DNA from: Jiangella alba
Lineage (GTDB): Bacteria > Actinomycetota > Actinomycetes > Jiangellales > Jiangellaceae
Direction of reading: 5' to 3'
Length of the DNA stretch: 64,000 nucleotides
Assembly: GCF_900106035.1 (NCBI RefSeq)
Contig: NZ_FNUC01000004.1
Location: forward strand, 1,364,001-1,428,000
Of the stretch, positions 9,706 through 41,955 are shown piece after piece. Below the pieces are notes generated by a model. It did no database searches. It was not told the DNA's origin and saw only the letters and a list, made by a program, of their open reading frames with translations. Numbering within the stretch: the first letter of the stretch is position 1; every line of letters begins with the position of its first letter. Both the position numbers and the translations under genes were made by a program.

Positions 9706-10701
9706 TCAGTGGGCGGCGTGGTGGTGCTCCAGCAACTCGCGCGCCAGCCGCCGTCCGGCGTCGGCGAGCGCGGGCGGGTCGGTGACGAACGCCAGCGGCC
9801 CGGCGCTCAGCAGCAGGATGCCCAGCCGCCGGTCGACCGGTGACAGCAGCCGGACCCGCACCTTCACCGACTCCTCGTCCTCGGCGAGCAGTTCGGAACT
9901 CTCGGCGAACCGGTCCACCGCCCAGCGCGCGTCCTGCGGCACCACCAGTTCGATCTGCCGCACGCGCCGGTGCCCGGCCAGCCGGTCCTCGACCTCCGGC
10001 GGCCGCTCGAACGTTTCTTCCAGCAGCGTCGCGTCACGGATGCCGGTGAGCAGGAAGCTGCCGACGACCCGGCCGTCGGCCGACATGCCCGCGTCGACCT
10101 CCCAGCCGCGGCGGGTGCGCAGCAGGCGATACGGCGCGATGCGGTGCTCCATGCTGTCGTCGTGCCACACCGGCGTGTACTCGACCCGCACCCAGCGCCG
10201 CCGCCGGATCGCGTCGACGAGGAGCTCGGCCAGCTCGGCCTTCCAGTGGTCGTCGACCGGGTGGATGCCGCGCAGCATGGTGTCGCCGAGCGCCCGCAGC
10301 GCGCCGTCGAGCACGTTGTTGTCCGGCTCCAGCGACAACAGGGCCTGCCCGGCACGATAGATGTGCGCGAGGTCGGCCGGCGCCGTGTGCAGCACGCCGA
10401 TCTCGGCGGCCGGGTGGTCGGTCGACGCGCGCACGACCTCGGCGGTCGCCGGGTCGACGTCGTCGGCCTCGCCGTCGGCATCGACGAACTCGATGCGCAC
10501 CTGGCGCAGCGGTCCGGTGTCGACGGCCGCGCTGTCGGCGCAGTAGAACGCCACGATCTCATCGCGCAGCGTCTGCTCGTCGACGTCCAGCTCGGCCGCC
10601 AGCCGGTGCAACGGGACGCCGTCGGGGTGCATGGTGAGGATGCGAAGCGCGTGCGTCACCCGCTCGAAGCGGCGGACGAACACGGGCGGAGGAACGCTCA
10701 T
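9706..10701 (-). CDS. WYL-domain transcriptional regulator (second of a pair)
   Basis: 331 aa. A winged-helix region (FERVTHALRILTMHPDGVPLHRLAAELDVDEQTLRDEI) is followed by the WYL core (RWVRVEYTP, HRIAPYRLLRTRRGWEVDAG) and a C-terminal extension domain. It follows another WYL regulator with a 3-bp gap, so the two are co-transcribed. The arrangement is like PafB-PafC, the mycobacterial DNA-damage regulators, but no proteasome (pup/prc/paf) genes are nearby, so I do not use that name. WYL proteins commonly sense nucleic acids or nucleotides. Confidence 0.88.
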   Translation of the reverse strand: MSVPPPVFVRRFERVTHALRILTMHPDGVPLHRLAAELDVDEQTLRDEIVAFYCADSAAVDTGPLRQVRIEFVDADGEADDVDPATAEVVRASTDHPAAEIGVLHTAPADLAHIYRAGQALLSLEPDNNVLDGALRALGDTMLRGIHPVDDHWKAELAELLVDAIRRRRWVRVEYTPVWHDDSMEHRIAPYRLLRTRRGWEVDAGMSADGRVVGSFLLTGIRDATLLEETFERPPEVEDRLAGHRRVRQIELVVPQDARWAVDRFAESSELLAEDEESVKVRVRLLSPVDRRLGILLLSAGPLAFVTDPPALADAGRRLARELLEHHHAAH

Positions 10702-10704
10702 GGC

Positions 10705-11619
10705 TCAGTCCAGAAGTGATTCCAGCTCCAGCAGGAGCTCACGGCGGATGGTCTCGGGAGCCAGCACCCGGACGCGCGGCCCGAGCTCGTAGACCCGGTT
10801 GCGGAACGCCGCCCGGTGCGTGACGCGGATGGTCAGCCGCACCACGTCGTCGTCGATCTCGTGATACGACGACGTGCCCAGCAGCGTCTCGACCTGGTTG
10901 CGGTGCGCGGGCGTCGTCTCGACCGTGACGTCGATTGGCTGGTCGACCGCCCACATCAGCGGATCGACCTCGTCGCGGAACGGCTCGTGCCGCGGGTCGG
11001 CCGTGCGGGGGAGGTCGACCCGGACGTCGGCCATGCGGTCCGTGACGAACTGCTTGTCCTTCTCGCTGCCGTCCTCGTGGCCGACCAGATGCCAGCCCGA
11101 CGTGCCCGGATAGACGAAGTGCGGGTGCACCAGCCGTTGCCGCCGCCTGTAGAGGAACCGCAGCCGGCAATGCCGCTCCAGCGCGTACAGCACCTTGTTC
11201 AGCGCGTCGTCATTGCGCTCGGCCAATGGCGCGGTGCGCAACTCCGGAATCGGCGGTGCGGCGGCGCCCTCGATGCCGGCCCGTTCCGCGAACGCCGCAT
11301 TGCCGGCGATCAGTGCCGCCCTCGCCAACTCGGTCTGTTGTTCCGGCGTCAGGGTCAGTCGCAGCCGATTGTCACCGGCGAACGCCCGATAGACCGCGGT
11401 CTGGCCGGGTGGTGCGGTGTTGCGGATGTCCCAGCCGACGCCGTTGAGATCCTCGATCAGCCGCTTCAACTGCCGTACATGATGGTCTTCTCCCCCACCG
11501 AAGGCCGCGATCTTCAGCAATCGCGGCGTCGGGATCCCCTTCGGCTCGGCCGCTACCAGCGCGACCAGCACCCGCGTCACCCGTTCCAAAGGACCCAGTT
11601 GGTCCCGTCCACCGGCCAT
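10705..11619 (-). CDS. WYL-domain transcriptional regulator (first of a pair)
   Basis: 304 aa from an ATG preceded by GGAGGGG; an ATG seven codons earlier has no ribosome-binding site. The N-terminal HTH (LERVTRVLVALVAAEPKGIPTPRLLKIAAF) precedes a WYL domain (CRLRFLYRRR, VHPHFVYPGTSGWHLVGHEDG) and the WYL C-terminal extension (YHEIDDDVVRLTIRV, ELGPRVRVLAPETI). It is paired with the following WYL gene and is likely to form heteromeric or co-acting regulators. Codon use is slightly less GC-rich in the first half. Confidence 0.88.
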   Translation of the reverse strand: MAGGRDQLGPLERVTRVLVALVAAEPKGIPTPRLLKIAAFGGGEDHHVRQLKRLIEDLNGVGWDIRNTAPPGQTAVYRAFAGDNRLRLTLTPEQQTELARAALIAGNAAFAERAGIEGAAAPPIPELRTAPLAERNDDALNKVLYALERHCRLRFLYRRRQRLVHPHFVYPGTSGWHLVGHEDGSEKDKQFVTDRMADVRVDLPRTADPRHEPFRDEVDPLMWAVDQPIDVTVETTPAHRNQVETLLGTSSYHEIDDDVVRLTIRVTHRAAFRNRVYELGPRVRVLAPETIRRELLLELESLLD

Positions 11620-11774
11620 GGCGCCCCTCCACAGCAACATCGGACGATCATGCTATGCCCGTGTCATGAGAAAGGCCAGACTAGTTCGTGAATTCTCATT
11701 TGGGGAGAATTACGAGGCGGTAGATTGCGGCAAACACCACTGGAACGCTTGGAATGGCTTAGGCACAAGGTGGT

Positions 11775-11814: not shown

Positions 11815-13629
11815 TCAGTCGTCGCGTTCGAGGGAGTCGCGGAGGAGCCGGCGGATCAGCACCTCGACCAGCATGCGGTCATCGTCGCGCAGGAGCTTGA
11901 AGAGATCGTAGAGATCCTCGGTGCGTGCGGGGCGCGGACGGTGCTCGACCTCGGGCTCGCGCGACGGCGCCGGGCGCTCCAGGTGCTCCATGCCGGCGGG
12001 TAGCGGCGTGGCGTGGAAGACCGCCAGCGACTGCGTGCACCGCGTCATCGCGACATAGAGCAGCCGCCGGCCCAGCTCCGTCCCGTCGCCGATCTCGGCC
12101 GGCTCGACCAGCGCGATGGCGTCGAACTCGAGCCCGTTGACGAGGTCGGCCGGGAGCAGCGTGACCGGCTGGTCGAGGTCGCCGTCGCGGCCGTCGCCGG
12201 CCTTGACGCCGGCCGCCTGGCAGTAGCGCAGCGTCTCGTCGTAGCGGGCCGGCGCGACCACCACGCCGACCTTGAACCCCGTACCCGCCGCGGCCTCGCC
12301 GGCGGACAGCGCGACCGCCGCTTCGTCGCCGGGGTCGACCCGGCGGACCAGCGGCACGCCGAGGCCGTCGCGCAGCGAGTCGGGCACGTCGAGCGTGCCG
12401 CCGTCGGGCAGCTGCCGCCGCGACAGCTCGATGACGGGACGGGGGACGCGGTAGCCGATGCCCAGCGTTCCCTGGCTGAACTCGGACCCGAAGTAGCTGG
12501 TCAGCTCGCTCCAGTCGTCGTGCTTGCCGGGACCGGTCGAGCACTCGAGGTCGCCGGCGAGCGTGACGTCGCGACAGCGGCGGGCGATGGCGCGGGCCTG
12601 CATGGGCGACAGGTTCTGCGCCTCGTCGACGACGGCGTGCCCGTAGCGCGGCGCAGCGCGCCCGAGCAGGTGCGACAGCTCATCGAGCAGCACGAGGTCG
12701 TCGACGGTCCACGGCTCGTCGTCGATCGACGCCGTCGGCTCGCGGTACAGCACGTCGCGCTGGCCGGCCTTCAGGAGGTCGTCGGCCAGCCGCTCCAGCA
12801 GCGAGGGGTCGGCATACAGGCCGCGGAGCAGCTCTTCGGGGGTCGCCGGCGCGTCGGCGGCCTCGACCAGCCGGCGCAGCAGCATGGCCATGACGGCCGA
12901 CCCCTTGACCCGCGCGGCCTCGGGCCGGGTGTCGCGGCCGTTGCGGCGGGCCGGGCCGCCGTACAGCGCGGCGATGTCGGTGGTGACGGCATCGGCGCCG
13001 AGCCGCGGCAGGACGTCGGCGACGTAGCTGCGCAGCGGCGGCGTCGGTGCGACGACCAGCAGGCCGCCGGCCCGCACGGCGTCGTCGTGGGCGGCCAGCC
13101 ACGCGGCGCGGTGCAGCGCGGTGATGGTCTTGCCGGTGCCGGGCCCGCCCTGGATGACGAGGACGCCCCGGCCCGGCCGGCGGACGATGTCGTACTGCTC
13201 GGGCCGCAGGGTGGCGGTGGCCTCGGCGAGCGTGCCGGTGCGGAACTGCTCGAGCGCCGCGACGACGACCTTCCCGACGACGGGACGGTGGTCGTGTGCG
13301 CTGCTGACGTCGCCCGCGGAGCCGCCGGCGATCTCGTCGTGCACGGCGATGACCTGGCGGTCGCTGACCGTGACGACCCGCTTGAGCGTGACGCCGGCGG
13401 GGTCGGTGCCGCAGGACTGGTAGAACGCGCCGGCCTCGGGCGAGTGCCAGGCGACGACGACGGCGTCGCCGGATTCGTCGCGGACGTCGTCGAGACCCAC
13501 GTAGCGCGAGCCGCCGCCGTCGTCGACCCGCCCGAACAGCGGCGGCAGGTCAGGCGCGTCGTCGCCCAGAAGGGCGTACGAGCGGTCGAGCTGCTGCTGC
13601 TCGTCGTCGAGAGCAGGGTGTGTCGTCAC
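11815..13629 (-). CDS. HelD/HelR-like superfamily 1 ATPase (RNA polymerase recycling type), short N-terminus
   Basis: 604 aa from a GTG with GGAAGGA upstream. HelD-type motifs: RYVGLDDVRDESGDAVVVAWHSPEAGAFY (HelD dimension of the YIGR/DWRAP region), LRPEQYDIVR, Walker A GGPGTGKT (161-168), VVDEAQNLSPMQ Walker B, LGIGYRVPRPV, and late LYVAMTRCTQSL. HelD proteins bind and remodel RNA polymerase and in actinobacteria can protect it from rifamycins. Here the N-terminal coiled coil that reaches into the secondary channel is very short (about 25 residues before the YVGL motif). It may be a truncated paralog with altered polymerase interaction, or a UvrD-like helicase of other function. Confidence 0.8.
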   Translation of the reverse strand: MTTHPALDDEQQQLDRSYALLGDDAPDLPPLFGRVDDGGGSRYVGLDDVRDESGDAVVVAWHSPEAGAFYQSCGTDPAGVTLKRVVTVSDRQVIAVHDEIAGGSAGDVSSAHDHRPVVGKVVVAALEQFRTGTLAEATATLRPEQYDIVRRPGRGVLVIQGGPGTGKTITALHRAAWLAAHDDAVRAGGLLVVAPTPPLRSYVADVLPRLGADAVTTDIAALYGGPARRNGRDTRPEAARVKGSAVMAMLLRRLVEAADAPATPEELLRGLYADPSLLERLADDLLKAGQRDVLYREPTASIDDEPWTVDDLVLLDELSHLLGRAAPRYGHAVVDEAQNLSPMQARAIARRCRDVTLAGDLECSTGPGKHDDWSELTSYFGSEFSQGTLGIGYRVPRPVIELSRRQLPDGGTLDVPDSLRDGLGVPLVRRVDPGDEAAVALSAGEAAAGTGFKVGVVVAPARYDETLRYCQAAGVKAGDGRDGDLDQPVTLLPADLVNGLEFDAIALVEPAEIGDGTELGRRLLYVAMTRCTQSLAVFHATPLPAGMEHLERPAPSREPEVEHRPRPARTEDLYDLFKLLRDDDRMLVEVLIRRLLRDSLERDD

Positions 13630-13783
13630 GTCTGTCCTTCCATCACCTCGGTATGCCGGGTTCGATGTCGACAGCTGGCGACCTACCCCGCGGAACCTCC
13701 CGCGCCGTTGCGGTATTTGACCATGATTGCGCAGATCCACGCGTGGGTCAGGCGAACGACAGGAAAGATGCCTTCCAGTTACC

Positions 13784-14551
13784 TCAGTGCGACGGGGTCG
13801 CCCCGCCGGCGTGCTGCCCGAGCACGAACACGACGCGCTCCGCGTCTGCGTCGTGCCCGTCCAGCCGGAGCTCGACCGCCCACCGATGCACGGTGTCGAC
13901 GTAGGCACGGTAGCGGGCCGCGCGGCTGCGCGAGCTGGCCAGCCGGGCAGTGCCGCCGATCTGTAATGTCCGGTTGAGCGTCGCGTACACCTGCTCGTCC
14001 AGCACCAGCGGCTGCCACGCCCGTCCCACGACGTCGCCCGCGGCGGCCCACCACCGGCTGGCCGGCGACTGGCCGACCCCGCGCAGCGACCACGCCCGGT
14101 GGTTCGCCTCCAGGGCGCCGTCGTGCAGGGTCTCGGCGGACCGGAGCCGGCGCACCGAGTCGGCGAGGATGCGGTGCGCGCGGTCCGGGTCGCGCAGCCC
14201 GCGCGCCGTCGCCCGCAGCGTCGCGTTCCCCGCGCCCGCCGACGCCCAGGCCATCGTCAGCACGAACGCCTGCAGCACCTCGCGCTGGTTGCCGAGATCC
14301 ATCGCGTGGCAGGCCGACCGGACGGCGGCGAGCGTCACCACGCGGTCCTTCGCCTTCGATCCCGCCAGCGGTGCGGTGTGCTCGCGGCTGCGCAGCAACG
14401 CCGTCACGTTCAGCTCCGGCGGCACGCGATAGAGCACCGCCGTCCAGTTCGGCGGCCGGAACCGCACCGGCGGCGGTTGCGCGTCGCGGTACTTGTCGAT
14501 GAGCGCCGGAAGCGCGGCCGGCACGGCCGTGCCGTGGATGGTGCGCACCAT
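13784..14551 (-). CDS. OGG-fold DNA glycosylase-like protein, paralog 1
   Basis: 255 aa. The pattern WSLRGVGQSPASRWWAAAG (helix-hairpin-helix-like loop), QPLVLDEQVYATLNRTL and late AARYRAYVDTVHRWAVEL matches the actinobacterial group annotated as 8-oxoguanine DNA glycosylase OGG-fold proteins. It is clearly homologous to the next gene upstream (shared REQPVR-like opening, SK(A/T)xDR, HDGALE, GVGQ, R.RAYV.TVHRWAVEL). The N-terminal start uses an ATG behind a run of Gs. Substrate not known; a base-repair or DNA-binding role is inferred only from fold. Confidence 0.65.
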   Translation of the reverse strand: MVRTIHGTAVPAALPALIDKYRDAQPPPVRFRPPNWTAVLYRVPPELNVTALLRSREHTAPLAGSKAKDRVVTLAAVRSACHAMDLGNQREVLQAFVLTMAWASAGAGNATLRATARGLRDPDRAHRILADSVRRLRSAETLHDGALEANHRAWSLRGVGQSPASRWWAAAGDVVGRAWQPLVLDEQVYATLNRTLQIGGTARLASSRSRAARYRAYVDTVHRWAVELRLDGHDADAERVVFVLGQHAGGATPSH

Positions 14552-14624
14552 GGCCACCCCCCCGTGGGTCGCCGTCCTACTGACAACGACATTACGCCCA
14601 AAGGGGGACTGATGCTCAGGGGTT

Positions 14625-15377
14625 TCATCCTGCCGGTGGCGCACCTCCGTTGTGGTGGAACAGCACGAACTCGATGCGCCGGGCATCGACGTCGCTGCCG
14701 GCGAGCTGCAGCTCGACCGCCCAGCGGTGGACGGTCTCGACGTAGGCGCGGTAGCGGTCGGCCCGGCGCCGCGAGCCCGCCAGCCGCGTGGTGCCGCCGA
14801 TGCGCAGGGTGTCGTTGAGCGTGGCGTAGACGTGGTCGTCGAGGACGAGCGGCTGCCACTCGCGGCCGCGCCGGTGGCCGGCCAGCGCCCACCACTTGCT
14901 CGCGTAGGGCTGCCCGACGCCGGGGAGCGACCACCAGCGGTGCACCTCTTCCAACGCGCCGTCGTGCAGCGACCCGGCGTGGCGCAGCGCCTTCGCGGCA
15001 TCGCTGAGCACCCGGAACGCCCGCGCCGGTTCGACGATGGCCTTCGCCGTGTTGGCCTGGTACCGCCCGCCCGTCAACCCCGACGCCCACGCCATGGCCA
15101 GCACGAACGTGCGCAGCACCTCCTTCGTGTCGTCGACGTTCATGGCGGCGCAGGCCCGCTCGACCCCCTCGCGCCCCACGGTGCGATCGTGCGTCTTCGA
15201 CCCGGGGACGGCGCTGGTGAACCGGCGGCTGGTCAGCAGCCTGGTGACCTCGAGCGATTCGGGCACCCGGATGAGCGCGTTCTGCCAGGTGCTCGGCCGC
15301 AGGCGCACGGGTTGTTCGCGCACATCGGCGTACCGGTCCAGCAGATCGCGCAGCACCGGCGGCGGCGACGTGCTCAT
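14625..15377 (-). CDS. OGG-fold DNA glycosylase-like protein, paralog 2
   Basis: 250 aa, tandem paralog of the following gene, 73 bp away. The key segment WWSLPGVGQPYASKWWALAGH resembles the HhH-GPD loop with Lys following the hairpin, and QPLVLDDHVYATLNDTLRIGG is the conserved partner motif. In this copy the hairpin Lys (ASKWW) is present, whereas paralog 1 has Arg (ASRWW). In OGG1-type enzymes a hairpin Lys is the Schiff-base nucleophile, so this copy is the better candidate for lyase activity; that is inference. Confidence 0.65.
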   Translation of the reverse strand: MSTSPPPVLRDLLDRYADVREQPVRLRPSTWQNALIRVPESLEVTRLLTSRRFTSAVPGSKTHDRTVGREGVERACAAMNVDDTKEVLRTFVLAMAWASGLTGGRYQANTAKAIVEPARAFRVLSDAAKALRHAGSLHDGALEEVHRWWSLPGVGQPYASKWWALAGHRRGREWQPLVLDDHVYATLNDTLRIGGTTRLAGSRRRADRYRAYVETVHRWAVELQLAGSDVDARRIEFVLFHHNGGAPPAG

Positions 15378-15417: not shown

Positions 15418-15828
15418 GTGACGGTGATCGCCTCGGCCCGCGCCCTCCTCCTCGACGACGCCGGGCGACTGGTGCTGATCAAGCGCACGAAGCCGGGCCG
15501 CCGTCCGTACTGGACGACGCCCGGCGGCCGCGTCGAGCCTTCCGATGCCTCGATCGAGTCCGCCCTGCACCGCGAGCTCATGGAGGAACTCGGCGCGACC
15601 GCCACCATCGTCGCCCAGATCCATGTCGTGGCGCCGACCGCCGCCCACCCCACCCGTCAGCACGTCTTCCTGGCGCGCCTGCTGACCATGGACCCGGCCC
15701 TGCGCTGTGGCCCGGAACTCACCGACGGCCACGCGCCCGAGCGCGTCCCGATCGACCGCCTCGACGAGATCGACCTGCGCCCGGCCGAGCTGGCGATCGT
15801 CGCCAAGCTTGTCCTGGGCGGATTATGA
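15418..15828 (+). CDS. Nudix hydrolase
   Basis: 136 aa. The Nudix box is a one-residue-longer variant: GGRVEPSDASIESALHRELM followed by EELGA, with the REL-x-EE-x-G core intact. The protein should hydrolyse a nucleoside diphosphate-X compound. It starts with GTG without a visible ribosome-binding site, so it may be leaderless. Its 3' end overlaps the convergent EVE-SRA nuclease gene by 6 bp. Substrate unknown; the neighbouring glycosylase-like genes make a nucleotide-sanitising role conceivable. Confidence 0.88.
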   Translation: MTVIASARALLLDDAGRLVLIKRTKPGRRPYWTTPGGRVEPSDASIESALHRELMEELGATATIVAQIHVVAPTAAHPTRQHVFLARLLTMDPALRCGPELTDGHAPERVPIDRLDEIDLRPAELAIVAKLVLGGL

Positions 15829-17160
15829 ATCGATCCGCTCGAAGCCACCCTCCGTGGTCTGCCAGATGCATGAGACGTCGTACTGCAGCAGCAACGCGAT
15901 AAGATCCGATCTCGGCTCGGTTGGCAGAAGCAATGCTTTCGAACGGTGGTCGACACGGCGTGAATAGTCGAGGATCTGTCCCAGCGCCATCCGAACAGAT
16001 TCGCGTGAGGACGAGCCTTTCGCTTCCACGAGTTCCTGAGCTTCATGGTCGTAAAGATCGCTGTACAGCGGCTTGGACTCGCCTGGTGGCGTGATGATGT
16101 TGCGACCCACGCTGTGGCCGCGCTGGATCAGCCAATCGCTGTAGCGCTTCACGAGTTCCGCCTCGACTCGTCGGCGCTCGACTGGTTCACCAGCGAGGTG
16201 AGCGGTATAGCTCTCTACGAGGTTGGCCTCGAGGGCGATGAACGCATGGGTCGGCCTCGGTGACGGCCGGAGGAGAGGCTCGCGCGGCGCGTAGAAGTCG
16301 CCTATTGGGGATAGCCGAAACTGGATAATTGAGCGATTGTTCAGATCGCGATCGATGGCGTCGGTAATCTCGAACGGTGGATTCGCCACCTGAAACTGTC
16401 CTACGTAAGTAGCCGAGGTCCCTCTCACTTCGAATAGTCGCAGGTTCTTCCCATTGTTGAGGTGGTCGCGCACTGCAAGATTACCGTCGCTAAATTTTTG
16501 GTCGCCGACCTGTCCCTCGCCTGTATACCGGTAGGTTCCGTCCGAATTCCAGCCGTCGTCATAGCCGAACTCTTCGCCTCGTTGAGAACCAGCGAAGATG
16601 AGGATAAAGGGCGAGTCACGAGAATGGCCGATGCCACGCTGGCGGTTGAGGCCGTAACGGTCGTGTAGGTGCTGACGCAGTAGGGTCTCGCCCACGGAGA
16701 TCGTCCAGTCAGGCCCCGTTGTGTCAGCGCCCGACCAGATGACGTCGGTCGTCAAGCTGTCAGTGAGTAGCGACTTGAGGGTGGCGACCCCTGCTGCCGT
16801 TGCGACCTTGATGACTCCGTTGTGTTCGAGTGCCCTGCTCCCGATGGCTTTCTGGATCTCAGCCCAGGTGAGCTGGCGGCTCGGCCCGCCTGGCATGTGT
16901 TGAAGATCGATGCGGTCAACGTAGTCGGACGTGTCGTGCTCGTCCCATGGACGAGAGGCGGAGCTGGAGATTTCGTAGGTGTCGCTGCGTGCCACTGCTC
17001 GACCCATGAGCCGCGCTTCCGGTCCGGATTGCCAGAAGAAGATCTCGTCGCCCTTTCTGATCGCACGGTTTTTCCGTCGGATGTCCCAGAAGCCATGCCG
17101 TCGTGAGATATCCCAATGGTGCGGAAAATTCCGACTGATCACGAAGATCCAACCGATCAT
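15823..17160 (-). CDS. EVE-SRA-PD-(D/E)XK protein, candidate modification-dependent (type IV) restriction endonuclease
   Basis: 445 aa from an ATG with AGGAGG 10 nt upstream (in-frame ATGs at 17169 and 17205 are alternatives). Three parts are visible. Residues 1-95 form an EVE/YTH-like module (GWIFVISRNFPHHW, FWDIRRKNRAIRKGDEIFFW), known to bind modified bases. Residues 160-265 form an SRA-like module of the ScoMcrA type (SPFILIFAGSQRGEEFGY, GTYRYTGEGQVGDQKF, NLRLFEV). Residues 330-440 form a PD-(D/E)XK nuclease with Asp368, Glu379-x-Lys381 and Gln395. Two base-reading modules plus a nuclease suggest cleavage of DNA carrying modified cytosines. GC content is well below the neighbours, a sign of transfer. 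Confidence 0.8.
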   Translation of the reverse strand: MIGWIFVISRNFPHHWDISRRHGFWDIRRKNRAIRKGDEIFFWQSGPEARLMGRAVARSDTYEISSSASRPWDEHDTSDYVDRIDLQHMPGGPSRQLTWAEIQKAIGSRALEHNGVIKVATAAGVATLKSLLTDSLTTDVIWSGADTTGPDWTISVGETLLRQHLHDRYGLNRQRGIGHSRDSPFILIFAGSQRGEEFGYDDGWNSDGTYRYTGEGQVGDQKFSDGNLAVRDHLNNGKNLRLFEVRGTSATYVGQFQVANPPFEITDAIDRDLNNRSIIQFRLSPIGDFYAPREPLLRPSPRPTHAFIALEANLVESYTAHLAGEPVERRRVEAELVKRYSDWLIQRGHSVGRNIITPPGESKPLYSDLYDHEAQELVEAKGSSSRESVRMALGQILDYSRRVDHRSKALLLPTEPRSDLIALLLQYDVSCIWQTTEGGFERIDS

Positions 17161-17190
17161 TAGGCGCATGCCTCCTACAGCGATGTCTGC

Positions 17191-17255
17191 TGCGGGTGGG
17201 GGCATGTCCGATGTGACTCGGAAGCCCGTCGGCCGCTGGTTCGTGATTAACTCTT
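17191..17255 (-). repeat. Leader repeat copy A (upstream of EVE-SRA nuclease)
   Basis: Matches copy B at 19177-19238. The first 20 bp agree at 17 positions (GGGTGGNGGCATNTCCG), then come TCGGAAGCCCGTCGG (identical), GGCCGC, GTGAT-AA and CTCT, with small insertions between. On the coding strand each copy contains ATGCCNCCACCCGC, an ATG encoding Met-Pro-Pro-Pro-Ala. Here that frame runs into the nuclease gene. It could be a shared promoter/operator, a leader peptide signal, or a footprint of duplication or insertion. Confidence 0.6.
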
Positions 17256-17257
17256 TG

Positions 17258-19144
17258 CTAGTGGCGTGTGAAGTTGGCGGGCGTACTCTCGACCAGCCGG
17301 GATAGGAACGTTCGGGTCATCGGATCGGCGGCATATATCACGGTTCCCACAAGCCCTCGTGTGAGGAGCACCCGGTACACCTGGCGCACGAGGCGATCGA
17401 AGTCGTGATCGGAAACAGCCTGATTCCGAAAAGCGGGGTCTCGGTTGGCTTGACGTACCGAGAATAGGTGACCGTCCCTAGCGACTAGGTCAGGGCCGAT
17501 AAGGACGCCGGACCAGTCGTACTCGAAGCCCTGGGCGGTATAGACGCAACCAACCTGACCGAAGCCAGCTGGGTCGGTGGCCCAGAAGGAGCGTCCGGGG
17601 GCTCCACCGACAGAGCGCTCACTCTTGACATTCCAAGGCCGAGCCCAGTCCTCAATTCTTACATCCGGGACGAGGGAGCCGTCCGCGCGTGGTTCGCTCC
17701 ATGACCAGCAGAACCCAGCGGACATTCGCGCCGAGTAGCCTTCGGTTTGCTTGTTTGCGAGGATTGATTCGAACTCCCATGGAGACTCGGCGATCATGAC
17801 CTCAAAACGATCATCGCCCTGCCAAACTCGAGGTGGTTCGGGGGCAAGGCCGAGGAGTCCGAGGACCCACCTCTCGTAGGCGGCGCTGCCGCCACAGCGG
17901 AATTGTCCCTCGAGGTCGATTTGGTGTACCCGAAATCCGCGTCGACGTGCCGCCGCACGGATGACTTCCACGTTTCCAGACTCGCCAGGCTTGACGACCT
18001 GGTGCTCGTCGAGCAGGAAGACTGGTACCCGCGCCGCTGACATGAGTTCGTCGACCTGTGGTCGGCCGGTGCGCAGGTGGGCCGGAGTGAAGCGATGAGC
18101 TGAGGTTTCGCGGATTCGATGTGCCTCGTCAGCTACGAGGACATCCAGGCTGTCGGCAGGGAGCTCGCCAAAGCTGTTGAAGTACTTGAACAGGTTCTTG
18201 ACCCGGGTTGAACCGCGGCCTGCGTAGCGCCGCATGGTCTCTGTGAAGGACTTCGAGCCGGTGGCATGAACGACGGCGCGCTCCTGCCGCGACAGTTCAC
18301 CGAGCAATGAGAGCGCAATGACGCTCTTCCCGCTACCCGGCCCACCTTTGACGATGATGACTTCCTTCGCCGCCTTGCTCGCCTGATCAGTTGCGTGCAG
18401 GACTAGCTCGTAGGCCAGCCGCTGCTCGTCCAGCAAGGTGAACTGTTCTCGGTTCTTGATCTCCTCGGCTGCCACTGAAAGGAGCTGCCGGCTCGGGCGA
18501 ACAGCGCTGGTCAGCAGTCGATCGGCTGGCTCGCTTCCAGACTGTGGGGAGATACGGTTCTGCAGGAACTCGACAAATGCGTCCCTGCTCTGCGCCGTGA
18601 ATGCTCGACCGAAATCGTCCGACTCACCGCTAAGGATGTCGCGAACAGCGTGATCGGTAGCGTTGTGGAGGTAGGCGACCCCGCGTACCGCATCTGGTTG
18701 ATTGTGAAGTGAGGAGGTGAAATCGACGAGATGCTGACAGTAGGAGCGCACCTGGGTGGTCGGGTGGAGCCGTGGACCGCCGAGAGTTCTTTCGACGAGG
18801 ACGAGGTGATCGTCATCCTCCCATGTTTCGGCCGAGCTCCATTGCTTGAGTTCCACGACGACGTAGGAGTCTTTGCCTGTCAGCGGGTGAAGGCCCGTAA
18901 TGATCACGTCGGCCCGCTTGCTTGTCAGGGGCAGCCGATACTCCACCAGGAGCTCTACGCCGCCAAGCCCCGCATCCACCAGGTCGTGAGCGAGGACAGG
19001 GAGGCTACGTCGCCACGCCCGAAGTTCGGAGTTCTGAGCTCGCGAGCCCATCTGTTCGCGGACATGCTCGGCGATCCGGACGTCCAGCGTCCCCTCGAGA
19101 GCGAGGACCGCAAGGCCCTCCGCTGAGTGACGAAACGCCGTCAC
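17258..19144 (-). CDS. PD-(D/E)XK nuclease-DUF2075 (Schlafen-3-like helicase) fusion protein
   Basis: 628 aa from a GTG with a GGGGG stretch upstream; an ATG 26 codons earlier is in frame. N-terminal domain: NSELRAWRRSLPVLAHDL, VEYRLPLTSKRADVII and VVVELKQW give Glu40, Asp79, Glu98-x-Lys100, a PD-(D/E)XK nuclease pattern. The helicase/ATPase part has Walker A GGPGSGKS (267-274), DEAH (339-342), a FRCGGSAAYERWVLG motif, and the late VYTAQGFEYDWSGVLIG and VYRVLLTRG motifs of DUF2075. Proteins of this design occur beside restriction and other phage-defence genes. Lower GC than flanking genes. Same orientation as the EVE-SRA gene, 97 bp upstream of it. Confidence 0.82.
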   Translation of the reverse strand: MTAFRHSAEGLAVLALEGTLDVRIAEHVREQMGSRAQNSELRAWRRSLPVLAHDLVDAGLGGVELLVEYRLPLTSKRADVIITGLHPLTGKDSYVVVELKQWSSAETWEDDDHLVLVERTLGGPRLHPTTQVRSYCQHLVDFTSSLHNQPDAVRGVAYLHNATDHAVRDILSGESDDFGRAFTAQSRDAFVEFLQNRISPQSGSEPADRLLTSAVRPSRQLLSVAAEEIKNREQFTLLDEQRLAYELVLHATDQASKAAKEVIIVKGGPGSGKSVIALSLLGELSRQERAVVHATGSKSFTETMRRYAGRGSTRVKNLFKYFNSFGELPADSLDVLVADEAHRIRETSAHRFTPAHLRTGRPQVDELMSAARVPVFLLDEHQVVKPGESGNVEVIRAAARRRGFRVHQIDLEGQFRCGGSAAYERWVLGLLGLAPEPPRVWQGDDRFEVMIAESPWEFESILANKQTEGYSARMSAGFCWSWSEPRADGSLVPDVRIEDWARPWNVKSERSVGGAPGRSFWATDPAGFGQVGCVYTAQGFEYDWSGVLIGPDLVARDGHLFSVRQANRDPAFRNQAVSDHDFDRLVRQVYRVLLTRGLVGTVIYAADPMTRTFLSRLVESTPANFTRH

Positions 19145-19176
19145 GCGCGACAACCCCCAGGCAGCACGAAGTAGTG

Positions 19177-19238
19177 CGCGGGTGGAGGCATATCCGTCAT
19201 TCGGAAGCCCGTCGGGCCGCATGGTGATCAACGACTCT
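19177..19238 (-). repeat. Leader repeat copy B (upstream of nuclease-DUF2075 gene)
   Basis: Second copy of the leader described for 17191-17255. On the coding strand it contains a short frame that begins ATGCCTCCACCCGC and encodes 16 residues (MPPPAHYFVLPGGCRA), with its TGA overlapping the GTG start of the nuclease-DUF2075 gene (GTGA). That is the geometry of a translated leader peptide coupled to the main gene. The repeat also contains GCCCG-T-CGGGC, a 5-bp inverted repeat. Confidence 0.6.
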
Positions 19239-19313
19239 AACGGACGGTCGTGACGAATGCCCGCGGTGGCAGTTGCTTGCTGCCCGCCCGTGACCACACC
19301 CGGGGTGAGCGAG

Positions 19314-19341
19314 TTGACGTGGTCGGCGCGCTGGGTAAACC
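19314..19341 (+). promoter_or_regulatory. Possible promoter for the AAA ATPase gene
   Basis: The 309-bp gap between the divergent nuclease-DUF2075 and AAA genes holds leader copy B on its left. On the plus strand there is TTGACG, a 16-bp spacer and TAAACC, a weak -35/-10 pair about 110 bp before the ATPase start. No gene was seen in the gap. Confidence 0.3.
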
Positions 19342-19453: not shown

Positions 19454-20764
19454 ATGGACGCCGCGCAGGCGGGTGCGCCCGTCGACGACGCGTTGCGGCG
19501 GATACCGCCCGGCGTCCGGGACACGCTGTCGTGGCTGGCGCACGTGCTCGACGCGACCGTGCCGCTGCGGACCGCCGAGGACCACGACGAGTTCGCCCGG
19601 CGGCAGCTGGGCGGCGACACCGCGGGGATCATCGCGGTGCGGGAGCGGCTCGGGCCGTTCACGGCGCCGCTGGTGGCCCGGGTGCTGGCCGAGGACATGC
19701 GCGCGCACCCGCCGGCCGACCTCGCCGGCCTGGAGAGCGACGAGAGCCCCCGCTGGGACCGCCTCCAGCTCGACGACACGGTCGAGACGGTGCCGACGTC
19801 GCTGGTGGCGGCGTTCGCGCCGGGCACGCTGAGCGCCACGCCGCTGGTCGTCGCCATCGACGCGCGGTGGGCCGACAAGGAGCTGATCGTCCACGCCCGG
19901 ACCGCCGACATCGAGGCGGCGGAGCAGTACCTGCAGGACGTCGTCGCCCGGGCCAGGGGGCCGCGGAACTACTTCAAGGGCCGCTGCCTGCACATCCGCG
20001 CCCGCCGCAGCGGCTTCGACGTCGTGCCGGTGGCGGTGCCCGACGAGACGCGCGACGGCGTCATCGTCCCGGCCGCGGTCTGGGCCGACGTCGACCTCAA
20101 CGTCGCCGGCCTGTTCCGCCGCCGCGAGCTGCTCGAACGGCTCGGCCTGGGCACCAACCGCGGGTTGCTGCTGCACGGACCGCCGGGCACCGGCAAGTCG
20201 GCGCTGTGCCGGGTGCTCGCCGCCGAGCTGGCCGGCGACATCACGGTGGTGTTCTGCGACGCCCGCAGCATCTCCGACGCCATCGAGGCGGTGTACGAGG
20301 AGCTGACGCGGCTCTCGCCGGCGCTGGTCGTGCTCGAGGACCTCGACCTCGTCGTCGGGCGGCGCCGGTTCGGCAACGACATCGGGCTGCACGGGTTCCT
20401 CGCCGCGCTCGACGGCGCCATGAGCCGGCACCAGGGCGTCGTCACCGTCGCCACCACCAACGAGCCACGGGTGCTCGACGACGCCGCGGTGCGGGCCGCC
20501 CGGTTCGACCGGACGGTGGAGCTGCCGCTACCGGACGGCGCGCAGCGGCGGGCGATCCTGCGGCGGTACTTGGGGCCGCTGGCGGCGGCGGTCGAGGTCG
20601 ACGCGATCGCCGACGGCACTGACGGCGCGTCCGGCGCTGACCTGCGCGAACTGGTGCGCCGCTCGGTTCTCGCCGACGGCGACGCGGTGACGACGGCGAC
20701 GCTGCGGCGCTTTGCCGGCGACGGCACGTGGGCCCCGGCGACGGGCGCGGGCCTGTACGTCTGA
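19454..20764 (+). CDS. AAA-family ATPase with N-terminal domain of unknown function (DUF5925-like)
   Basis: 436 aa; ATG behind GAGGAGGTGA. About 200 residues of unassigned N-terminal domain precede an AAA module with Walker A GPPGTGKS (242-249), Walker B LVVLEDLDLV, sensor VATTNEPRVLDDAAVR and arginine-finger-type ARFDRTVELPLP. It ends with a small AAA lid (GASGADLRELVRRSVL). The family is recognisable as the actinobacterial DUF5925-AAA group from memory. Role unknown; it may remodel proteins. High GC, unlike the two nuclease genes to its left, so probably resident. Confidence 0.85.
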   Translation: MDAAQAGAPVDDALRRIPPGVRDTLSWLAHVLDATVPLRTAEDHDEFARRQLGGDTAGIIAVRERLGPFTAPLVARVLAEDMRAHPPADLAGLESDESPRWDRLQLDDTVETVPTSLVAAFAPGTLSATPLVVAIDARWADKELIVHARTADIEAAEQYLQDVVARARGPRNYFKGRCLHIRARRSGFDVVPVAVPDETRDGVIVPAAVWADVDLNVAGLFRRRELLERLGLGTNRGLLLHGPPGTGKSALCRVLAAELAGDITVVFCDARSISDAIEAVYEELTRLSPALVVLEDLDLVVGRRRFGNDIGLHGFLAALDGAMSRHQGVVTVATTNEPRVLDDAAVRAARFDRTVELPLPDGAQRRAILRRYLGPLAAAVEVDAIADGTDGASGADLRELVRRSVLADGDAVTTATLRRFAGDGTWAPATGAGLYV

Positions 20765-40872: not shown

Positions 40873-41955
40873 ATGCCAGTGGAGTTCGGCATCTGGAGGA
40901 TCGACAACGGCCTTGCGCCGGTCGCGTTCAGTCGGCTGGACACCGAGTCGAGACTCGAGAGTCTGCTGGAGCAGGCCGTCTCGATTCTCGGACTCGACAT
41001 CATGGTGTTGGCCCGGCAGGTGCCGACCTCATTCGGTAAGCGGATCGACCTGCTGGCCATCGACGCCGAAGGTGATCTTTACGCTATCGAGCTGAAACGC
41101 GATCGCACGCCGCGCGATGTGGTGGCGCAGGCGCTCGACTACGGGTCCTGGGTCAAGGACCTCGGCCACGTCGACCTCACCGAGTTGTACTCCGAGCGCC
41201 ATCCGGGAGAACAGCTCGAGGTGGCCTTCGAGGAACGGTTCGGCGGTACCTTGCCTGATGCCCTGAACCAGAACCATCACTTGATCATCGTCGCGTCTGA
41301 ACTCGACAACAGCACCGAACGCATCGTCCGGTACCTGTCCACTGACTTCGCGGTTCCCATCAGTGTGCTGTTCTTCCGCTACTACCAGGACGACGGGCGC
41401 GAGTACCTGGCGCGGACCTGGCTCAACGCGCCGACGGAGGCTGACGCTGCCGCCAGCGCGTCACGCCAGTCGAAGAAGACACGTGAGCCGTGGAACGGTC
41501 AGGACTTCTACGTCACCGTGGGAGAGGGCGACCACCGCAACTGGGAGGATCAGCAGGAGCTGGGCTACATCTCAGCCGGCGGCGGTAAGAGGTACTCCAG
41601 TCCGCTCAACCAGCTCTTCGTCGGCGCGCGCGTATTCGCGTACATCCCGGGTCGCGGATATGTTGGCGTCGGCCAGGTGACAGAACCCGCGCAGGCAGTC
41701 ATCGACTTCACGGTCGACGTCGACGGGGAACGGGTGAACCTCTTGGATGTTCCCACTCTGCGTGCTCCGGCTCTGAAGGAACACACGTTGCCAGAGACCA
41801 TGGAGTACGCCGTTCGGGTCCAGTGGATCACGACCGTCCCGCGGGAGCGTGCCATCAAGGAGCAAGGGCTGTTCGCCAATCAGAACAGCGCCTGCAAGCT
41901 GCGCAATCAGTTCACCATCGACCGGCTCACCGCGCGGTTCGGGCTCGATCAGTAG
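40873..41955 (+). CDS. NucS/DUF91-like PD-(D/E)XK nuclease domain protein
   Basis: 360 aa; ATG with GGGAGGGAA upstream. Residues ~20-110 form a DUF91/NucS-like nuclease: LEQAVSILGLDIMVLARQV, then GKRIDLLAIDAEGDLYAIEL-KRDRT with Asp and ExK, and a conserved Gln/Tyr (VAQALDYGSWV). The C-terminal 170 residues (WNGQDFYVTVGEGDHRNWED, GYVGVGQVTEPAQ) are probably a separate nucleic-acid-binding module, possibly EVE/PUA-like. Such stand-alone proteins are often called DUF91 domain proteins. Slightly lower GC than neighbours. Role in repair or defence is inference. Confidence 0.8.
   Translation: MPVEFGIWRIDNGLAPVAFSRLDTESRLESLLEQAVSILGLDIMVLARQVPTSFGKRIDLLAIDAEGDLYAIELKRDRTPRDVVAQALDYGSWVKDLGHVDLTELYSERHPGEQLEVAFEERFGGTLPDALNQNHHLIIVASELDNSTERIVRYLSTDFAVPISVLFFRYYQDDGREYLARTWLNAPTEADAAASASRQSKKTREPWNGQDFYVTVGEGDHRNWEDQQELGYISAGGGKRYSSPLNQLFVGARVFAYIPGRGYVGVGQVTEPAQAVIDFTVDVDGERVNLLDVPTLRAPALKEHTLPETMEYAVRVQWITTVPRERAIKEQGLFANQNSACKLRNQFTIDRLTARFGLDQ

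Follow-up and report, generated by a model that had tools for sequence, protein, structure and literature searches.

A low-GC insert in Jiangella alba pairs a putative EVE-SRA-PD-(D/E)XK enzyme with a DUF2075 nuclease–helicase in what looks like an anti-phage defense system

The locus analyzed here lies in a 64-kb stretch of the Jiangella alba genome (contig NZ_FNUC01000004.1, positions 1,364,001 to 1,428,000 of the forward strand), referred to as the window. It holds an inserted segment with exactly two genes: gene 1, encoding a reader–nuclease with EVE, SRA and PD-(D/E)XK domains, and gene 2, encoding a PD-(D/E)XK nuclease fused to a helicase of the Schlafen group 3 family (SLFN-g3, DUF2075). 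A pairing of this kind is found repeatedly among actinobacteria, and it has the look of a so far undescribed system of anti-phage defense. The features are listed in Table 1.

Table 1 Features of the two-gene insert and its neighbors (positions in the window)
Feature	Position	Strand	Basis
Inserted segment, ~3.53 kb, exactly two genes	15794..19324	.	Flank match to same-genus genome G007
Gene 1, EVE-SRA-PD-(D/E)XK reader–nuclease, 445 aa from probable ATG	15823..17160	-	Pfam, alignment, structure model
EVE domain of gene 1, limits approximate	16750..17160	-	Sub-cut-off Pfam match; profile–profile match
ScoMcrA/AspBHI-type SRA domain of gene 1, limits approximate	16261..16728	-	Structure model, Foldseek
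C-terminal PD-(D/E)XK nuclease domain of gene 1, limits approximate	15826..16188	-	Invariant residues, model
Gene 2, PD-(D/E)XK nuclease fused to SLFN-g3/DUF2075 helicase, 654 aa	17258..19222	-	Pfam, alignments, model, Foldseek
N-terminal PD-(D/E)XK nuclease of gene 2, limits approximate	18518..19045	-	Invariant residues; model helix–strand order
SLFN-g3 (DUF2075) helicase domain of gene 2	17324..18367	-	PF09848, E=3.2e-79; Foldseek
Left neighbor, NUDIX hydrolase, outside insert	15418..15828	+	Pfam scan; adjoins AAA gene in G007
Right neighbor, AAA+ ATPase, outside insert	19454..20764	+	Pfam scan; at least 82% identity in 8/11 other same-genus genomes

Most of the window has a guanine plus cytosine (GC) content of 70-77%, with a dip to 59.9-61.4% per kb at 16-19 kb; outside this dip, most 1-kb bins fall at 69-77%. 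GC at third codon positions (GC3) is 68.5 and 69.3% in the two genes, compared to 95.0 ± 2.7% (lowest value 82.2%) in 46 other window genes taken from a codon-model caller that was trained on, and favors, GC-rich genes and that missed both island genes. A low-GC island of two genes running in the same direction, with A/T-rich third positions, had been proposed in an earlier sequence-only reading of the window, and the composition is indeed atypical for its surroundings. The limits of the insert follow from a genome of the same genus (G007, locus L188). Its left flank matches the window as far as 15793 and its right flank from 19325 onward, and 28 bp separate the two. The 3.53 kb between these points are filled by gene 1 and gene 2 and have a GC content of 60.8%, compared to 73.9% in the flanks. 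Neither gene has a match at E<=0.001 in the 11 other genomes of the genus.

The architecture of gene 1 proposed in the sequence-only reading, an EVE reader followed by an SRA domain and a PD-(D/E)XK nuclease, is upheld by profile comparison, structural matches and catalytic residues. The open reading frame (ORF) is open to 17205 (15823-17205, 460 amino acids), and residue numbers follow this longer reading. The start is probably the ATG at 17160, because AGGAGG is found 10 nt upstream and the 'MIGW' encoded there can be aligned to the 'MTAW'-like N-termini of homologues. Enzymes of the MspJI/AspBHI family consist of an SRA reader followed by a PD-(D/E)XK nuclease. The SRA fold of such modification-dependent endonucleases is present in the structure model of gene 1, in which the predicted local distance difference test (pLDDT) score is mostly 85-96 in the SRA region and mostly at least 95 in the nuclease region. 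Foldseek places AspBHI (4oc8) first for the SRA–nuclease part (E 7.6e-8), besides ScoMcrA (9.5e-8; sulfur-binding domain (SBD) plus SRA) and the SRA domain of SUVH5 (target-based template modeling score up to 0.69). The Pfam match to SAD_SRA is below the cut-off (E=0.011). In the nuclease domain, D383, E394, K396 and Q410 are invariant in 19 aligned sequences including the window, and the PD-(D/E)XK catalytic residues are intact.

The EVE domain is more divergent. Against PF01878, the whole protein scores 17.6 bits (E=0.0041) and the domain alone 21.1 bits (E=0.00034), with a cut-off of 23; three of the eight members of this EVE subfamily match PF01878 at E<=0.1. A comparison with a profile of four accepted EVE domains gave an hhalign probability of 92.7, with an E-value that applies to a single comparison. 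Searched against solved structures, the EVE profile matched the UPF0310 protein PH1033 (1wmm; E=0.024), which we take to be an EVE protein, but this is a weak test because 1wmm sits among RuvB-like matches that are likely due to chance. The SRA–nuclease part also occurs without EVE, in proteins of about 300 amino acids (at least 87 matches, several of them named from actinobacteria). The architecture of gene 1 is not unique: P0052 (metagenome) and P0064 (Streptomyces sp. NPDC020983) likewise combine an EVE domain, although a more distant one, with an SRA-type domain and a C-terminal nuclease-like part.

Gene 2 matches the SLFN-g3_helicase family PF09848 with 267 bits (cut-off 24), and its Walker A motif GGPGSGKS is invariant in 18 sequences except for S/T at one position. 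In the N-terminal domain, E94, D105, E124 and K126 are invariant in the same number of sequences and in a second set of 31, both including the window, and the helix–strand order in the model (mean pLDDT 82.5) fits a PD-(D/E)XK nuclease. A nuclease–SLFN/DUF2075 helicase, as the sequence-only reading had it, is what these data describe; the position 19238 given there as the end of the island is out of frame. The ATG at 19222 fits the homologues, and an in-frame TTG is found at 19231. The Foldseek search with the gene 2 model gave RecD2 as the best match, with Dna2 also scoring high, and further matches to Dda and SLFN14. A Schlafen core (RNA nuclease) domain was not found in gene 2 by a Pfam scan at E<=0.1; the N-terminus carries the PD-(D/E)XK motifs. 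Relatives of gene 2 are widespread (at least 5032 matches among 7997 scored candidate proteins). Adjacent pairs of DUF2075 paralogues are found at L052, L055, L072, L078, L079 and L085, where the second copy is only 38-43% identical to gene 2.

To characterize the linkage of the two genes, 393 genomes of the class were surveyed, with cut-offs of E<=1e-8 for gene 1 and E<=1e-30 for DUF2075. A DUF2075 gene is present in 60 of them, and gene 1 has a match in 27, the J. alba genome included in both counts. In 25 of the 26 other genomes the match comprises the SRA/nuclease part only, and none of these 25 has a DUF2075 gene on the same contig; in G272, G316 and G390 it is found on other contigs. Conserved linkage of the complete EVE–SRA–PD-(D/E)XK gene with gene 2 is rejected on these grounds. 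The 26th genome, G313, matches the EVE part only. Here, the gene for a 302-aa EVE–HNH_2 protein follows a same-strand DUF2075 nuclease–helicase gene after a gap of 54 bp, and this linkage is free of selection for the helicase because gene 1 was the sole query. The same locus (L068, 3600-7002) also contains genes for a BrxC/BrxD-family ATPase and a DEAD/DEAH helicase beside the pair; similar genes adjoin DUF2075 in L057.

A search of the 393 genomes with five EVE–HNH proteins matched 73. Only in G313, G389 and the window genome do the matches extend over the EVE part; the remaining matches listed concern the HNH part. A model of the EVE subfamily, built from eight rows that include the window genome, G313, G389 and G473, detected four of the 393 genomes: the first three of these, which are model rows, and, weakly, G225. 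In G389, the EVE–HNH gene carries a frameshift and is separated from the helicase by a MazG gene. Among 106 genomes of the G313 family, the same model found the EVE subfamily in 11. In nine of these (G313, G473, G459, G406, G461, G432, G476, G472 and G417), a DUF2075 nuclease–helicase gene is immediately followed by a same-strand EVE–HNH gene, about 30-110 bp away where the start is clear. In G461 and G417 the two overlap, probably as ORFs extended upstream, and in G432 the helicase frame is broken into two ORFs. G313 and G473 are rows of the model; of the nine genomes that are not, seven show the linkage. For the sequence-only reading, a lack of conserved linkage in other genomes would have been one of two grounds for refutation. 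Linkage is indeed lacking for the complete gene 1 (0/25 genomes) but holds for the EVE module (9/11). It is thus the EVE module that supports a pairing of two components, in which the nuclease half is exchangeable. On plasmids, 26 records hold a relative of the helicase, and 700 match the EVE–HNH protein, none covering 80% of it among the matches listed. In a viral collection, the EVE–HNH alignment matched 16 loci, 15 of them in the HNH part only and one (L197) over residues 32-272; the helicase alignment yielded one marginal locus.

There appears to have been more than one origin of the pairing. Mapped on a FastTree tree of 158 helicases, the EVE-linked state requires a minimum of seven changes, a count in which gains and losses are pooled. 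By tree distance, three groups of EVE-linked helicases can be told apart: one from the G313 family, one from Ornithinimicrobium, Serinicoccus and Janibacter, and a pair formed by Geodermatophilus and G389. The helicase of the window lies closest to three MazG-linked relatives from its own family (two of them at 71% identity), not to the EVE–HNH groups. Leaving the window aside, the EVE and helicase distances of ten pairs correlate with r=0.65 (Mantel p=0.0002).

An overview of the genomic context of the helicase was obtained from a helicase-alignment scan (best 80 of at least 531 named loci), which together with the survey loci and the window gave 141 loci, or 136 after de-duplication. In the de-duplicated set, reader–nuclease genes are found within 150 bp of the helicase in 13 loci (32 per 100 kb), at 150-1200 bp in 7 (2.6 per 100 kb), and beyond 1.2 kb as 7 matches (0.2-0.8 per 100 kb). 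The partners are of several kinds. EVE–HNH genes lie directly downstream in L068, L164, L175 (Ornithinimicrobium pekingense), L178 and L187 and in divergent orientation in L102 and L171. An SBD–HNH enzyme, encoded 67 bp downstream in L083, scores 265.6 bits against the NCBIfam model for phosphorothioated-DNA restriction enzymes, whose cut-off is 180. In L173, L140 and L167, the partners are HNH proteins with N-termini of other kinds. In L096 the partner is a protein that we label YTH-like–PD-(D/E)XK, the YTH-like designation being our own, without a Pfam match. An unnamed family of ~320 amino acids with an HNH-like C-terminus takes this place in L074, L076, L092, L093, L103, L169 and L177. Its HNH_2 match is weak and restricted to L092 (E=0.018), and most of a profile made from six members can be aligned with EVE–HNH (probability 92.6). 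Two side observations concern these partners. The 576-aa protein at L171 (4664-6394) has an EVE N-terminus and an HNH C-terminus with, judged by eye, an SBD-like stretch between them. In L093, L103 and L177, two DUF2075 paralogues occur with the unnamed 320-aa reader–HNH gene between or beside them.

Phages modify their bases to evade restriction, and bacteria answer with readers of modified DNA. We propose, with a probability of roughly 0.6, that gene 1 and gene 2 together make up a mobile, modification-dependent restriction system of two components: the reader–nuclease would cut modified DNA, which the nuclease–helicase would then degrade. The proposal builds on the domains, the catalytic residues, the joint insertion and the conserved adjacency of EVE reader and helicase. 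The EVE and SRA domains of gene 1 would flip out and sense modified bases, most likely 5-substituted cytosines, and its PD-(D/E)XK domain would cut near them. SRA–PD-(D/E)XK enzymes, AspBHI among them, cleave close to modified cytosine. In VcaM4I, the EVE domain flips 5-methylcytosine or 5-hydroxymethylcytosine into a pocket, according to the available part of PMC7897488. Taken together, these two activities suggest that gene 1 may need or prefer two modified bases, cutting beside them. Gene 2, with its superfamily 1-type helicase and its own nuclease, would load at the break and would unwind and degrade the cut modified DNA, which would keep a phage from repairing the break; the two proteins may interact physically. 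Cutting would presumably precede degradation, and modified phage DNA is the probable target of the pair. The J. alba genome has no match to the C5-cytosine methylase family PF00145 (the only methylase family searched), compared to 10 of 14 control genomes with a match, which, depending on the mark that is sensed, would fit a need to spare the DNA of the host.

A number of observations weigh against this proposal. On the side of gene 1, the EVE domain is below its Pfam cut-off, and the corresponding part of the structure model is too poor to be used (block pLDDT 29-68). The linkage is also incomplete. Only 3 of the 60 helicase genomes in the survey have the EVE subfamily beside the helicase; G225 has the EVE domain without a helicase nearby, and G435 has it with a nearby MazG gene and no helicase in 10.4 kb (the contig ends 1.9 kb upstream of the EVE gene). 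Most DUF2075 genes lack a reader–nuclease partner, which is found within 1.2 kb in 20 of the 136 loci as counted with profiles of which several were built from genes first found beside the helicase. With the window included, the distance correlation is weak by rank (55 pairs; Pearson 0.60; Spearman 0.20, p=0.15), and it is confounded by host relatedness, as shared host ancestry can also yield it. RNA helicases such as Ighmbp2 and Upf1 are among the Foldseek matches of gene 2. Finally, the commonest neighbor of the helicase is a MazG-like gene, present within 3 kb in 71 of the 141 loci (five confirmed with Pfam). MazG being commoner there than a reader–nuclease, another or a wider job of the helicase is indicated.

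The rival that fares best, though we consider it rather unlikely, is that two stand-alone defense genes travel together: gene 1 would be a complete type IV enzyme of the MspJI/AspBHI kind and gene 2 a separate defense or DNA-processing gene, both co-selected in mobile islands without cooperating. The ~300-aa SRA–nuclease relatives that occur without gene 2 nearby fit this, as do the 116 of 136 helicase loci without a reader–nuclease match within 1.2 kb and the helicases of L157, L159 and L166, which are close to EVE-linked ones and have no reader gene downstream. What speaks for cooperation instead is the same-strand, directly downstream placement in 9 of 11 genomes, the apparently repeated gain of the pairing, and the steep decay of reader genes with distance from the helicase.

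In a second alternative, gene 2 and MazG would be parts of one module for the nucleotide pool or DNA repair, in which the nuclease–helicase handles DNA with built-in unusual nucleotides, the reader–nucleases being optional add-ons. Nearly all MazG-like genes are within 150 bp of the helicase (67 matches, compared to 5 farther out), and human DCTPP1, which is MazG-like, has a high affinity for deoxycytidine triphosphate (dCTP) and its modified derivatives (PMC7162842, available part). This alternative appears improbable nonetheless: the helicase is patchily distributed (60/393 genomes), absent from the 11 other genomes of the genus and located in a low-GC insert, all unlike housekeeping repair, and the window insert has no MazG gene. 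Even less credible is a pair that targets RNA or acts by host shutdown, a mode of action proposed for certain Schlafen nucleases and for EVE-associated systems; the membership of the helicase in Schlafen group 3, the matches to SLFN14 and RNA helicases, and the title of the CoCoNuTs paper, which predicts RNA targets for a type IV branch, are outweighed by the PD-(D/E)XK motifs of gene 2, its structural proximity to the DNA helicase RecD2 and the nuclease–helicase Dna2, and the DNA enzymes matched by the SRA–nuclease half of gene 1.

An extension of the two-component restriction system is put forward tentatively. The DUF2075 nuclease–helicase might be the shared effector of plug-in restriction systems in actinobacteria, combined with interchangeable readers (EVE-HNH, EVE-SRA-PD-(D/E)XK, SBD-HNH, YTH-like-PD-(D/E)XK and the unnamed reader–HNH) and often with MazG, in a joint attack on modified phage genomes at the level of DNA and of the nucleotide pool. 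The MazG enzyme may then clear modified deoxynucleoside triphosphates. MazG is among the domains of defense systems predicted by DefensePredictor in the available part of PMC13092281.

Each part of the pair belongs to a known kind. To our knowledge, EVE- or SRA-reader–nuclease enzymes are mostly described as acting alone. Gene 1 shares with the MspJI/AspBHI family its SRA–PD-(D/E)XK layout, but differs by the additional N-terminal EVE domain, by the helicase partner, and by an SRA sequence that is nearest to ScoMcrA among solved structures (E=0.0034). With ScoMcrA, a phosphorothioate-dependent type IV enzyme, it has this domain in common, and an SBD–HNH relative adjoins the helicase in L083; unlike ScoMcrA, gene 1 has no SBD or HNH detectable by domain scans. 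EVE–HNH endonucleases such as VcaM4I (PMC7897488, available part) likewise fuse an EVE reader to a nuclease, and the EVE subfamily of the window is fused to HNH_2 in relatives, whereas gene 1 carries SRA-PD-(D/E)XK in place of HNH; the words operon, neighbor and helicase do not occur in the available part of that paper. PADLOC gave no strong match to a named system: gene 1 matched mREase_IV (18.9 bits), and gene 2 matched the candidate PDC-S41 and, weakly, Nhi, AbiO, mad8 and GajB. The PDC-S41 match (E=3.3e-14) amounts to 50 bits in two stretches, best in the C-terminal helicase region, and indicates a distant relative only.

The closest published description is that of Bell et al. 2020 (PMC7641849), the available part of which covers EVE-PD(D/E)XK and EVE-HNH restriction enzymes and helicase–nuclease neighbors. 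The EVE partners named there differ from gene 2, being McrB, SWI2/SNF2-nuclease-DUF499, and paralogues of a UvrD-like helicase–Cas4-like nuclease (in Nocardia and related genera). The latter might overlap with the DUF2075 family; the words Schlafen and MazG do not occur in the paper. A DUF2075–EVE pairing was not found in the available parts of PMC7641849, PMC12839542, PMC13092281, PMC12923530 and PMC7897488, nor elsewhere in the literature searched, a search with most subscription papers and supplements outside its scope.

The insertion site was compared in eight genomes of the genus, including G007 and G009. G009 also has a short spacing, but most of its NUDIX gene is gone. The other six contain 1.8-5.0 kb of other DNA of normal GC (72.4-74.4%) between the same flanks, with some ORFs that resemble, by eye, the WYL-type regulators of the window; the idea of a defense hotspot is weakened by these GC-normal stretches. 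Low GC is likewise rejected as a hallmark of the system. It is peculiar to the window insert: 11 comparable pairs elsewhere deviate from their flanks by -5.5 to +5.5 points, and several have a GC content near or above that of the flanks. The neighboring NUDIX, OGG-like and AAA/IetA-like genes were considered as parts of the system and rejected, as they are GC-rich and outside the insert, and the AAA gene is common to 8 of the 11 other genomes of the genus.

Further genes of the window are noted for completeness. Two adjacent genes with OGG-like putative 8-oxoguanine glycosylase domains (PF21790) are located at 13784-15377, beside the NUDIX hydrolase gene. A HelD/UvrD-like helicase at 11815-13740 partially matches models of RNA polymerase recycling motors, far below their cut-offs. 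Two adjacent WYL-domain genes are found at 9706-11640, and look-alikes (by eye) are encoded between the island flanks in several genomes of the genus. Another gene of lower GC3 (82.2%), at 40879-41955 in a bin of 63.4% GC, has no Pfam match at E<=0.001. The 64-kb window contains no tRNA gene.

A recurring partnership of a reader–nuclease with a nuclease–helicase would give a widespread and unexplained helicase family a testable role, and the compact two-gene pairs are suited to plaque tests. It would also point to one shared degradation engine that is fitted with changing reader domains.

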